A stretch of 64,000 nucleotides of DNA from an uncultured Dehalococcoidia bacterium (GTDB lineage Bacteria; Chloroflexota; Dehalococcoidia; Bin125), in NCBI GenBank assembly GCA_958295515.1, contig CATQGW010000002.1:1-64000 (forward strand), in the 5' to 3' direction. The position numbers were made by a program, and so were the translations under genes. Of the stretch, positions 19,686-28,678 are shown in pieces. The number at the start of each line of letters is the position of its first letter. Positions within the stretch are counted from its first letter, which is position 1. The notes under the pieces are model-generated. The model did no database searches. It worked only from the letters and a program-made list of their open reading frames with translations, and was not told the origin of the DNA.

Positions 19686-20531
19686 TTACTCCGTTTCGAT
19701 GGGGTGCTCCAGGGCGTTGCCGTACTCGTGCCAGGAGGCGTCGTAGTTGCGGGGGTTGTTGTAGCCGAGGAGGCGGAGGAGGAAGAGTCCGTGCGCCGCA
19801 CGGATGCCGCCCTGTCAATAGGTGGTGACGCGGGTTTCGGGGGTGATGCCGAGGTCGGCCAGCATTTGGCGCAGCTCGGCGGGCGGCTTGAGCGTGCGAA
19901 CCGGCGATTCGAGGGTGTGCAGCCACTCCAGATGCACCGCGCCGGGGATTCTGCCGCCGCGCTGGGTGCCGCGCTTGTTTGCGCCGGTCCACTCGCCGTC
20001 GGAGCGAACATCCCAGAAGATGTGGTTTTCGTCCTCAATCAGTGCGGGGATCTCGTCGAGGCGGCAGATGGTGTCGTCGTGGGGTGCGGGCGGGGTGGGA
20101 TAGTCGGCGGGTGCGGCGCGGCGGTTGTCGTTGGCGAGCGGGCGGCCTTCGGCGTACCACTTGTCGAGGCCGCCGTGGAGCACCTTGAAGTTGGTGTGTC
20201 CGAAGCGGTCGAAAGTCCACCAGACGCGGGCGGCGTAGAGGCCGCCGGAAGCGTCGTAGGCGACGACCTGGGTGTCGGGCGTGATGCCCAGCCGTCCGGC
20301 CAGGCGGGCGAATTGTTCGGAGTCTTCGAGGCCGTAGATCTGGCTGTCGTCGGAGGGGTCGCTCTTCCAGTAGCGCGAGAGCGACCAGAGCGCGCCGGGG
20401 ATGTGCAGCCGCTGGTAGGCGGGCAGCACATCGCAATCGAGCAGCACCAGGTTGTCGTCCTCGATGTGCTCGGCCAGCCAGTCGGTTTCGCAAAGCAGCT
20501 CGGGGTTGGCCCAGGCGTCCTGATCGGTCAT
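19686..20531 (-). CDS. Two-domain rhodanese (sulfurtransferase), probable selenoprotein with TGA at the catalytic Cys codon
   Basis: Read through one in-frame TGA (19815-19817) the gene gives 281 residues, the normal size of thiosulfate/3-mercaptopyruvate sulfurtransferases. Domain 1 (about residues 10-130) lacks a cysteine at its loop (AYDASGGLYAARVWW), as is usual. Domain 2 reads ...ETRVTTY-TGA-QGGIRAAHGLFLLRLLGY...NYDASWHEYGN, exactly the active loop of the family, with TGA standing for the catalytic cysteine (residue 239). Coding similarity continues to TAA 19686-19688. A hairpin follows the TGA. The simplest reading is selenocysteine; a nonsense mutation is the alternative. The start lies 7 bases after the protease gene stop, in one operon. 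Confidence 0.82.
19788..19804 (-). promoter_or_regulatory. Candidate bacterial SECIS hairpin behind the rhodanese TGA
   Basis: On the minus strand TCCGTGC (19804-19798) pairs perfectly with GCACGGA (19794-19788), leaving a 3-base loop GGC. The loop starts 17 bases after the TGA. This satisfies the published bacterial SECIS rules known to me: a short apical loop with G in its first two positions, a stem of 4 or more pairs, and 16-37 bases from UGA. The spacing matches that of the E. coli fdhF element. It lies inside the coding region, as bacterial SECIS elements do. Confidence 0.7.
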
Positions 20532-20538
20532 GGTGGAC

Positions 20539-21942
20539 TCATTCCTGCTGGGGCGCGTCTTGCGCTTCGGAATCGTCAGCATCGCTCGAGTCTTCGGCGT
20601 CGCTGTCGGCTGCGGCATCGGGCGGTTGGTATTGGCCGCGCAGGTAGTCTATTGCGGTGATCAGCTGGACATCGAGGTCGGCCTCGAAGCCGGTTTCGGG
20701 CTGTACGACCTCGATATCGGGGAGCACGCCGACGCCCTCGATGACGGTGCGGTTGGGGGAAATCCAGCGGGCGATGCTGACGTAGAGCACGCTGCCGTCG
20801 GAGAGGCGTCGGGGGAGGTTGACGGTGCCCTTGCCGGCGGTGACTTCGCCGATCAGCACGGCGCGCCCGTGGTCGCGCAGCGCCGCCGCCATCACCTCCG
20901 CGCCGGAGGCCGAGGCGCCGTTGATCAGGATTACGAGCTCCATCTCGATGCCGTTGCCGCCGCGATCGTCGCGGAAGACTTCCTCCTCACCGTCGCGGTG
21001 AATTTCGCGCAGGATCACTTCCTGATCGACGAATTCGCCGGTCGTTTCGACGGTCGCGCGCAGCAGCCCGCCGGGGTTGTTGCGGACATCGATGATCAGC
21101 TTGCCGACGTTGGCGTTGGCGGCGGCTTCGAGCAGATTGATCAGGTCGTCGCGGGTGGTCTCGGTGAACTGCGAAATCCAGATGTGGCCGATGTCGGCGA
21201 CGGCGTTGCTCTGGCGGTCAGTGAGCGGCAGCGAGCGGACGCTGGGCACGACGATTCGGTCGCGCACGATCGGCAGCAGTTCCTCGGTGCCGTCGCTGTG
21301 CCGCACCAGCAGCTCGACGGTGGTGCCGGCGGGGCCGCGGATGCGCTGGACGGCGAGTTGGAGCGACCAATCGGCGATCGACTCCCCGTCGACCTCGAGG
21401 ATCACATCGCCGTCGCGCACGCCGGAGCGCTGGGCGGGGGAGCCGTCGAAGACGGTCACGATCGTGATCTCGCCGTCGAAGTCGTTGACGGTGCAGCCGA
21501 TGCCCTCGAAGGAGCCGCCGATGTCCTCGGAGGTGAGGCGGTAGTCCTCGGCGTCGATGAATGCGGTGTGTGGGTCGCCGAGGCTATCGATGATGCCGTT
21601 AATCGCGGCGGTGCGCAGGTTGGCGGCTTCGAAGCTGGCGGGGTCGACGAAGTCGCGGTCGAGGATCTCGTAGACCTCGTCGAGGATGGCGAAGCGCGAG
21701 GCGCGGACGGCGGTCTGTGTGGGACTATCCGGTTCGCGGATGACCGGCGCGGTCACGGCGACCTCGCCGCGGGCGCTGCGCAGGAAGGCGTCGCGCCCGT
21801 CGGGCTCGTCGACGATCCGAATGACGCCGACGCCGAGCGCGAAGGCGGCGAGGAGCATGATCAGGATCAACAGCGCTGCGATGTTGCGGCGCGGACCGCG
21901 CGGCGCAGGCGGTGCGGGCTGCGGCTGGGGGAGTTCGGACAT
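20539..21942 (-). CDS. C-terminal processing peptidase (S41 family, CtpA-like)
   Basis: 467-residue serine protease with an N-terminal membrane anchor (about residues 20-42) after a Pro-rich cytoplasmic tail. A PDZ domain follows (IGCTVNDFDGEITIVTVFDG, RSGVRDGDVILEVDGESIAD). The S41 core includes LIIDVRNNPGGLL, the nucleophile serine in NGASASGAEV and the general-base lysine in GEVTAGKGTVNLPR. It acts outside the membrane on C-termini of exported proteins. The C-terminal 40 residues are an acidic Asp/Ser/Gln tail. It stands immediately upstream of the rhodanese gene. Confidence 0.93.
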   Translation of the reverse strand: MSELPQPQPAPPAPRGPRRNIAALLILIMLLAAFALGVGVIRIVDEPDGRDAFLRSARGEVAVTAPVIREPDSPTQTAVRASRFAILDEVYEILDRDFVDPASFEAANLRTAAINGIIDSLGDPHTAFIDAEDYRLTSEDIGGSFEGIGCTVNDFDGEITIVTVFDGSPAQRSGVRDGDVILEVDGESIADWSLQLAVQRIRGPAGTTVELLVRHSDGTEELLPIVRDRIVVPSVRSLPLTDRQSNAVADIGHIWISQFTETTRDDLINLLEAAANANVGKLIIDVRNNPGGLLRATVETTGEFVDQEVILREIHRDGEEEVFRDDRGGNGIEMELVILINGASASGAEVMAAALRDHGRAVLIGEVTAGKGTVNLPRRLSDGSVLYVSIARWISPNRTVIEGVGVLPDIEVVQPETGFEADLDVQLITAIDYLRGQYQPPDAAADSDAEDSSDADDSEAQDAPQQE

Positions 21943-27567: not shown

Positions 27568-28107
27568 TCAGAACTCCGGCGGGCCGATGCCCGCCAGCGC
27601 GCCGTCGCCGTGGCCGTTGGTCTGGGGGCAGAGATGCTCGTCGCCCTCCAGCGGCTGCTTGCAGAGCGGGCAGGTGGGACGCCCACCGGCGACGGCCTGC
27701 TCGGCCTGCACGGTGAAGCCGCGGGCGATCGCGCGGCTGAAATCGACGCGCAGCGTGGGCTGCTCGGTGTCCACCTCGATATCGGTGGCGAAGAGCGTGA
27801 GGGTGTGCGCGTCCTCGTCGTAGCCCAGCGCGATGCGCCCGGCCTGAAACTCGTGCGTCGGCTGGTCGGGGAAGGGGACGAGCGAGGGTGCGCCGGGCCG
27901 CCGCCGCTCGCCCTCGCGGCGGTAGCGCGCGAGGATCTGCTGCACCGCGGTGGCCAGCGAGTTGACCTGTTCCTTTTCGCACCAGATCGCGGCGGTGACC
28001 TGGCCGGCGCTGACGCGCAAGCGAAAGCGGCGCTGGCCCGGTTCGCCGATTGCTTCGGCTTCCAGCGCCGTCGCTGCGCCCAGATCCCATTCGGCTGAGG
28101 AGGACAT
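27568..28107 (-). CDS. DUF3090 family protein with C-terminal zinc-ribbon motif
   Basis: 179 residues. The N-terminal two thirds (GEPGQRRFRLRVSAGQVTAA, WCEKEQVNSLATAVQQIL) fit DUF3090, a family found mainly in actinobacteria and Chloroflexota, often next to phosphoglycerate-mutase-like or kinase genes. The tail carries CPLCKQPLEGDEHLC, a likely zinc site, then a Gly-rich end. Its TGA stop abuts the MFS gene. Function not established. Confidence 0.78.
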   Translation of the reverse strand: MSSSAEWDLGAATALEAEAIGEPGQRRFRLRVSAGQVTAAIWCEKEQVNSLATAVQQILARYRREGERRRPGAPSLVPFPDQPTHEFQAGRIALGYDEDAHTLTLFATDIEVDTEQPTLRVDFSRAIARGFTVQAEQAVAGGRPTCPLCKQPLEGDEHLCPQTNGHGDGALAGIGPPEF

Positions 28108-28210
28108 GCGCAGAGTCTATATCCACCGCCGATCTCGGCTGCGCGCGGAGGCGTAGGATGGGGACGCAGCGCGCCGTCCGAGGCGAACGGCGGTGGAACA
28201 GGAGCGGCTG

Positions 28211-28678
28211 ATGGCAGTCGAGGTTGGACAGCAAGCGCCCGATTTCACGCTGATGGACGGCGATCGCCAGGAGCACCGGCTCGGCGACTACCGCGGCCAG
28301 ACGGTCGTTGTGGCCTGGTACGTGCTGGCCTTCACCGGCGGTTGAACGAACGAATTGAGCCGCTTCCAGGAACTCCACTCGGAGTTCGAAGCGGCCGGCG
28401 CCCAGGTGCTGGGCCTCAGTGTGGACTCGCCCTTTGCAGCCGGTGCGTACGCGCGCGAACTCGGGCTCAGCTTTCCGCTGCTGGGCGATTTCCCGTGGGG
28501 CAAGACGGGCAAGGTCTGGGGCATCCTCAACGAGGAGCGGGGGATCACGGCGCGGATGACATATGTGATCGACGCCGAGGGCGTGGTGCGGCACATCGTC
28601 GACGCGCCGCGCGATTTCGCGCTGCACGCCGAGGAATCGCTGGCGCAGGCGCAAGCGCTGGCAGTGGATAACGACTAG
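28211..28678 (+). CDS. Bcp/AhpC-type peroxiredoxin, probable selenoprotein with TGA at the peroxidatic Cys codon
   Basis: From ATG 28211 (AGGAG 6 bases upstream) the frame reads APDFTLMDGDRQEHRLGDYR and VVVAWYVLAFTGG, then TGA at 28343-28345, then TNELSRFQELHSEF and a complete peroxiredoxin to TAG 28678. The TGA (codon 45) falls exactly where FTxxCTxE proteins have their peroxidatic cysteine. Bypassed, the product is 155 residues, a normal size, with no other cysteine, so it would be a 1-Sec enzyme. It would reduce peroxides in the cytoplasm. A long hairpin follows the TGA. Undisturbed coding over 110 codons argues against decay. Confidence 0.85.
28359..28395 (+). promoter_or_regulatory. Candidate SECIS hairpin behind the peroxiredoxin TGA
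   Basis: GCCGCTTC (28359-28366) pairs with GAAGCGGC (28388-28395), and inside it GAACTCC (28370-28376) pairs with GGAGTTC (28381-28387). A 3-base bulge (CAG) lies on the 5' side and the apical loop is ACTC. The 15-pair stem begins 13 bases after the TGA and the loop 31 bases after it, within the bacterial SECIS range. The loop lacks the usual early G, so this element is less canonical than the rhodanese one. Confidence 0.5.

Follow-up and report, generated by a model that had tools for sequence, protein, structure and literature searches.

A predicted selenocysteine peroxiredoxin of the TxxU kind in an uncultured Dehalococcoidia bacterium

In bacteria, selenocysteine (Sec) is inserted at UGA by way of SelB, which is directed by a hairpin and brings Sec-tRNA-Sec to the codon. 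PrxU of Eubacterium acidaminophilum is reportedly a Sec peroxiredoxin. Those of the TxxU kind are known from the Sargasso Sea and from genome surveys, as the first-pass annotation of the DNA discussed here had rightly said in stating that Sec peroxiredoxins exist in some bacteria; 43 such sequences are given for the Sargasso Sea in the available part of one report (PMC1088965), and the PxxxTxxU motif is called highly conserved among Sec peroxiredoxins in the available part of another (PMC13188914).

The DNA examined here, called the window below, is a stretch of 64,000 nucleotides (contig CATQGW010000002.1, assembly GCA_958295515.1) from an uncultured Dehalococcoidia bacterium. It carries a gene which, with a probability that we put at roughly 0.93, encodes a functional selenocysteine peroxiredoxin of the small AhpE/BCP-like type. 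With such an enzyme, this uncultured and in part sponge-associated lineage would possess a conserved antioxidant that depends on selenium.

The gene and its predicted product

The features of the locus, all on the forward strand, are as follows.

28200..28204, +, likely ribosome-binding site AGGAG, 6 bases before the ATG (read in the sequence)
28211..28678, +, predicted Sec peroxiredoxin gene, 155 residues, AhpC-TSA fold (translation with TGA as Sec, Pfam, AlphaFold2, PDB matches)
28334..28345, +, TxxU active-site motif Thr42-Gly-Gly-Sec45 (translation, alignments)
28343..28345, +, TGA, codon 45, read as selenocysteine (same codon across relatives)
28355..28398, +, bulged hairpin, predicted bacterial SECIS element (folding, consensus fold, shuffle tests)
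28553..28555, +, codon of Arg115, invariant active-site arginine aligned with AhpE Arg116 (alignments)

The frame runs from the ATG at 28211 through 44 codons to the TGA, and then for 110 more codons to a TAG at 28676-28678; an AGGA-like motif is also found upstream in most of the family members whose loci were compared. With Sec entered as Cys, the Pfam AhpC-TSA domain is matched at 1.1e-34 over residues 5-129, spanning the TGA, and in the match to AhpE of M. tuberculosis (2.6e-23), the best relative of solved structure, the TGA is the alignment partner of the peroxidatic Cys. The flanking residues read AFTGG-U-TNEL, with Val38 at position -7 of the motif, where Pro is usual, and the product has no Cys residues at all. 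The position of Arg115 is invariant in both of the alignments used (A1 and A3); this residue, like Arg116 of AhpE, presumably has a role in the active site. The title of PDB entry 4xih describes an R116A mutant of AhpE. AlphaFold2, given an alignment of 29 sequences, produced a model with a mean pLDDT of 96.3, and the best PDB matches of this predicted model in Foldseek include Bcp4, AhpE and other peroxiredoxins, at TM-scores of about 0.85-0.90. Gene-calling software would probably break the gene in two; mechanical ORF calling lists the second part only from a TTG at 28355. The first-pass annotation had described much the same arrangement -- FTGG-TGA-TNE at the peroxidatic position, 110 intact codons after the TGA, a product without cysteine, and a split by annotation pipelines into a stub and a remainder -- and the alignment with AhpE, the open frame to the TAG, the translation and the ORF calls agree with it on all of these points.

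The likely course of events can be sketched from the way bacteria insert Sec and from the chemistry of the family. SelB, guided by the downstream hairpin, would deliver Sec-tRNA-Sec at the peroxiredoxin UGA; the selenolate of Sec-45, set up by Thr42 and Arg115, would attack H2O2 or organic hydroperoxides and become a selenenic acid; and the oxidised Sec would then be reduced by an outside thiol, which might be thioredoxin, a glutaredoxin-like protein or a small thiol. In a lineage without any cysteine the reduction must come from such an outside thiol (the 1-Sec mechanism), and since the motif Pro and every possible resolving Cys have been lost, the enzyme is expected to act as a 1-Sec peroxidase and to draw on an external reductant, as the absence of Cys suggests.

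Gene neighbourhood and selenocysteine machinery

In 14 of 15 relatives the genes stand in the same order, MFS - DUF3090 - peroxiredoxin - two small genes - ThiS-like, and the contig of the 15th ends early. The DUF3090 gene, at 27568-28107 on the reverse strand of the window, is divergent from the peroxiredoxin gene in all 15 family relatives examined. No redox partner was recognised beside the peroxiredoxin gene, the two small neighbours having no Pfam match, and no match in plasmid records reached 60% identity. Elsewhere in the window, at 19686-20618 on the reverse strand, lies a gene for a two-domain rhodanese (PF00581, 1.1e-32) in which a TGA at 19817-19815 replaces the active-site Cys (TTY-U-QGGIRAAH); judging from this sequence, it is likely a second selenoprotein.

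The assembly that holds the window (2.62 Mb in 6 contigs, 94% complete) has a tRNA-Sec at C4:183639-183732 (71.3 bits; called by ARAGORN as tRNA-SeC with anticodon TCA), SelA at C6:31407-32468 (5.5e-124) and a full-length SelB (348.6 bits against a cut-off of 242 bits). Searches of this 94%-complete assembly for SelD, by profile, which gave two weak matches below cut-off, and with the protein of a close relative, were negative. One possibility is that the peroxiredoxin is a selenoprotein by descent whose translation now stops at the TGA, selD having been lost from the organism. SelD scores over cut-off in 18 of 20 family genomes, and the second exception besides the window's own genome is G019, a family genome that has the TGA gene and in which no tRNA-Sec match was obtained. 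We nevertheless regard this loss as unlikely: SelA, SelB, tRNA-Sec and the peroxiredoxin itself are all intact, the rhodanese is a second TGA gene in the window, and the gene that adjoins SelD in G007, G014 and G002, encoding an oxidase which we take to be LhgO-like, also has no match in the window's own genome, as a missing stretch would give. Because this usual neighbour is missing too, the absence of SelD is likely an assembly gap. For the reading as a functional Sec peroxiredoxin, then, the genome-wide look for Sec machinery that the first-pass annotation had proposed turned up tRNA-Sec, SelA and SelB, with SelD alone absent from the assembly.

A search of 148 relatives at a threshold of E 1e-20 matched 61 genomes, 45 of them with the TGA form. 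SelA is present in 41 of these 45 and in 8 of the 16 genomes whose only forms are non-TGA (Fisher p 0.0012, which is a guide only, since the genomes are related and not independent). The four TGA genomes without SelA, which are 69-90% complete, each have a TGA-bearing SelD and a true tRNA-Sec. A close relative of the gene lies on contig MPNM01000002 of bin125, from a sponge microbiome study; SelA and SelB are described as occurring together in most symbiont bins, and as missing from most reference genomes, in the available part of that study (PMC5649159).

Conservation of the TGA codon and the downstream hairpin

In the window's own family the TGA form was found in 18 of 20 genomes and Cys-only forms in none, the other two giving no match at E 1e-20; the TGA is thus kept in every one of the 18 that possess the gene. 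Of 71 places in the relatives, 70 were read (30 + 40; G134:C92 was left out). All 30 of the best loci have the TGA in an otherwise open frame, with no frameshifts, while the 26 non-TGA places comprise 25 with Cys and one with TGG. In a scan of named genomes, made with search patterns that lie outside the Sec codon, the best 80 of 389 relatives were kept; 79 of these best 80 loci have TGA and one has TGC, a share that is biased upward because the query alignment was built of Sec forms alone and only the best 80 were kept, and there is no further in-frame stop for more than 100 codons. Chloroflexota (many of them Dehalococcoidia) and Acidobacteriota are represented among the best 80 of 389, along with one bin of Tectomicrobia and a few bins without assignment. 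The 150 proteins assembled, which include these best 80 of 389, reduce to 131 distinct ones, and 104 of the latter, from Chloroflexota, Acidobacteriota and Tectomicrobia, have the TGA. Among 16 close genomes, the window included, the same TGA is present throughout at a pS of about 0.5, and pN/pS is 0.103 for codons 2-44 vs 0.136 for codons 46-145; purifying selection is about equally strong before and after the TGA.

These data bear on three other explanations. Two products made without Sec, namely a 44-residue stub and a shorter protein starting at the TTG at 28355, where the mechanical ORF begins, are very improbable; the shorter protein would be without the initial strands as well as the catalytic Thr-Gly-Gly-Sec loop, and such an internal restart was rejected on the grounds that both halves are under purifying selection and that a single AhpC-TSA domain is matched across the TGA. 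If TGA were sense throughout the genome (in the manner of codes 4 and 25, as Trp or Gly), or were read through by a near-cognate tRNA, the frame would be open under any sense meaning, but an enzyme with Trp or Gly in place of the peroxidatic residue would presumably be dead, Cys forms occur at exactly that site in relatives, and a tRNA-Sec with a TCA anticodon is present; genome-wide reassignment was rejected, as a reading with next to no probability, since TGA still serves as a stop in two genes nearby, those for DUF3090 and ThiS, both of which end in it. A pseudogene, in which a recent nonsense mutation, a sequencing error or an assembly error had put a stop codon at an active-site position and the remainder were decaying, is hardly credible and was rejected in view of the same TGA in 16/16 close genomes at that pS and in 104/131 distinct relatives of three phyla (the best 80 of 389 included), the lack of other stops or frameshifts in 30/30 loci and the low pN/pS that follows.

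The proposal of the first-pass annotation that this is a functional selenoprotein and not a pseudogene is accordingly upheld by the Sec machinery, the conserved TGA with its open frame and the low pN/pS after it. That annotation had suggested a comparison of substitutions downstream of the TGA, where the value (0.136) proved to be low and near the upstream one (0.103), and had held that random stops or frameshifts in relatives would speak against it; the frames are open in 30/30 loci, with TGA in 79 of the best 80 of 389, and nothing of the kind was seen.

The hairpin has 8+7 bp and three outer pairs, with bulges, and lies 10-53 bases after the TGA, so that the 15-bp hairpin at 13-53 bases picked out at first reading was nearly exact. 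Its energy is -25.4 kcal/mol (z -3.8 against 200 dinucleotide shuffles), and an equally good fold appeared in 3 of 300 synonymous-codon shuffles of the window hairpin. A consensus hairpin fold was obtained from 16 relatives, and in 30 of 30 sequences the fold of the 54 bases that follow the TGA is better than the synonymous-shuffle mean. In a sliding synonymous-shuffle test, the surplus of folding is confined to +1 to +18 codons, both in the family (mean z -1.44, 16/16 below 0) and in non-family sequences (mean z -2.20, 14/14 below 0), the mean z at 12 other offsets along the gene being 0.35 to -0.58. No compensatory change was detected among the 16 relatives, where 0 of 20 pairs have both sides changed and the pairs are conserved, so that the case for the structure comes from its energy and not from covariation; under the coding constraint there is little scope for compensatory changes here. 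The apical loop of the minimum-energy fold in the window is ACUC and contains no guanosine, a base that bacterial SECIS loops usually have, and the consensus fold of the relatives has an 8-base apical loop with a G at its 3' end. Rfam, run on the window at the gathering threshold, reported a tmRNA only.

Branches of the family and relation to known peroxiredoxins

Among the 104 distinct Sec forms, Thr stands at -3 in 103 and Gly at -1 in all, and position -7 is Pro in 30, Val in 53 and Ala in 14; since most Sec forms here lack it, the motif Pro is usual and not strictly defining. The distribution of cysteines varies between groups. The window's group has none (16/16), the rows of the Acidobacteriota clade share one invariant Cys, at +99 relative to the Sec, in 32/32 (L083, L085, L087 and others), and a Cys at +39 is found in 12 rows, most of which belong to a single Dehalococcoidia group. 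The Cys at +99, absent from the window's group, is a possible resolving residue.

Two Cys forms, L141 (from G091) and L142 (from G061), both reading FTGGC, are nested within the Sec clade in the trees, the forks that hold them having bootstrap/SH-aLRT values of 99/96 and 99/94. Neither G091 (75% complete) nor G061 gave a match to SelA or SelD or a genuine tRNA-Sec, the best matches to the latter being a tRNA-Leu and a tRNA-Trp. A third Cys form inside the Sec clade, L162, comes from a genome (G124) with SelA and tRNA-Sec. The simplest reading of L141 is a change from Sec to Cys; for L142 and L162 the change may have run in either direction. A degenerate relative, L143 (G049), carries TGG (Trp) where the active-site residue belongs and sits on a very long branch.

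We lean, if only slightly, towards the view that these sequences form a widespread and so far unmodelled branch of Sec peroxiredoxins, spread over Chloroflexota, Acidobacteriota and Tectomicrobia, in which Sec is ancient, the motif Pro has been relaxed, the resolving Cys has turned over between lineages (none, +39 or +99), and Sec has reverted to Cys in places where the machinery was lost. The return to Cys, if true, would be in a direction for which the tabulation in the available part of PMC1794560 holds no peroxiredoxin event (0 Sec-to-Cys, 5 Cys-to-Sec). Close relatives with Sec and with Cys, some of them free of cysteine, would offer a natural test both of selenium's benefit in a one-residue peroxidase and of the loss of Sec when the machinery goes. 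No description of this branch was found in the titles and opening lines of abstracts on selenoproteins of SAR202, Dehalococcoidia and Acidobacteria or on AhpE and selenocysteine, and the main text of deep-Sep (PMC12013277) makes no mention of peroxiredoxin.

As judged from its sequence, the predicted enzyme is one of the TxxU selenocysteine peroxiredoxins, a known kind, and fits no NCBIfam model: none of 13 NCBIfam matches to the protein is over cut-off, the best being PrxU. Both the AhpC-TSA domain and T-x-x-U are present, and the Pro of PxxxTxxU is absent (Val38). The Cys peroxiredoxins in its class, L150 and L157 among them, which we take to be of the BCP/PrxQ type, share its fold, length and motif, but have Cys, most of them with a second Cys at +5, and lie mostly on separate branches of the tree. 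The protein is closer in sequence to small peroxiredoxins of the AhpE type than to PrxU; its predicted fold, active-site Thr and Arg and lack of a resolving Cys are AhpE-like, and with the 1-Cys enzyme AhpE itself (Rv2238c of M. tuberculosis) it shares a one-chalcogen active site, the FTG motif, the Arg and a TM-score of about 0.85-0.90, though AhpE has Cys in place of Sec and the identity is 35-37%. The comparison with PrxU-like selenoproteins suggested at first reading holds in part: the protein is a probable Sec peroxiredoxin similar to the PrxU model (NF040737), which matches its residues 2-149, but by NCBIfam it is not PrxU, scoring 75.3 bits against a cut-off of 270 with a model of 233 positions vs 155 residues. 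With the TxxU Sec peroxiredoxins, as these are presented in the available parts of PMC1088965, PMC1794560 and PMC13188914, it has in common the AhpC-TSA domain, a peroxidatic Sec, a hairpin after the UGA and Cys homologues that are common; it differs from them in having Val for the Pro of PxxxTxxU, in having no Cys at all, and in its occurrence here in Dehalococcoidia and Acidobacteriota.
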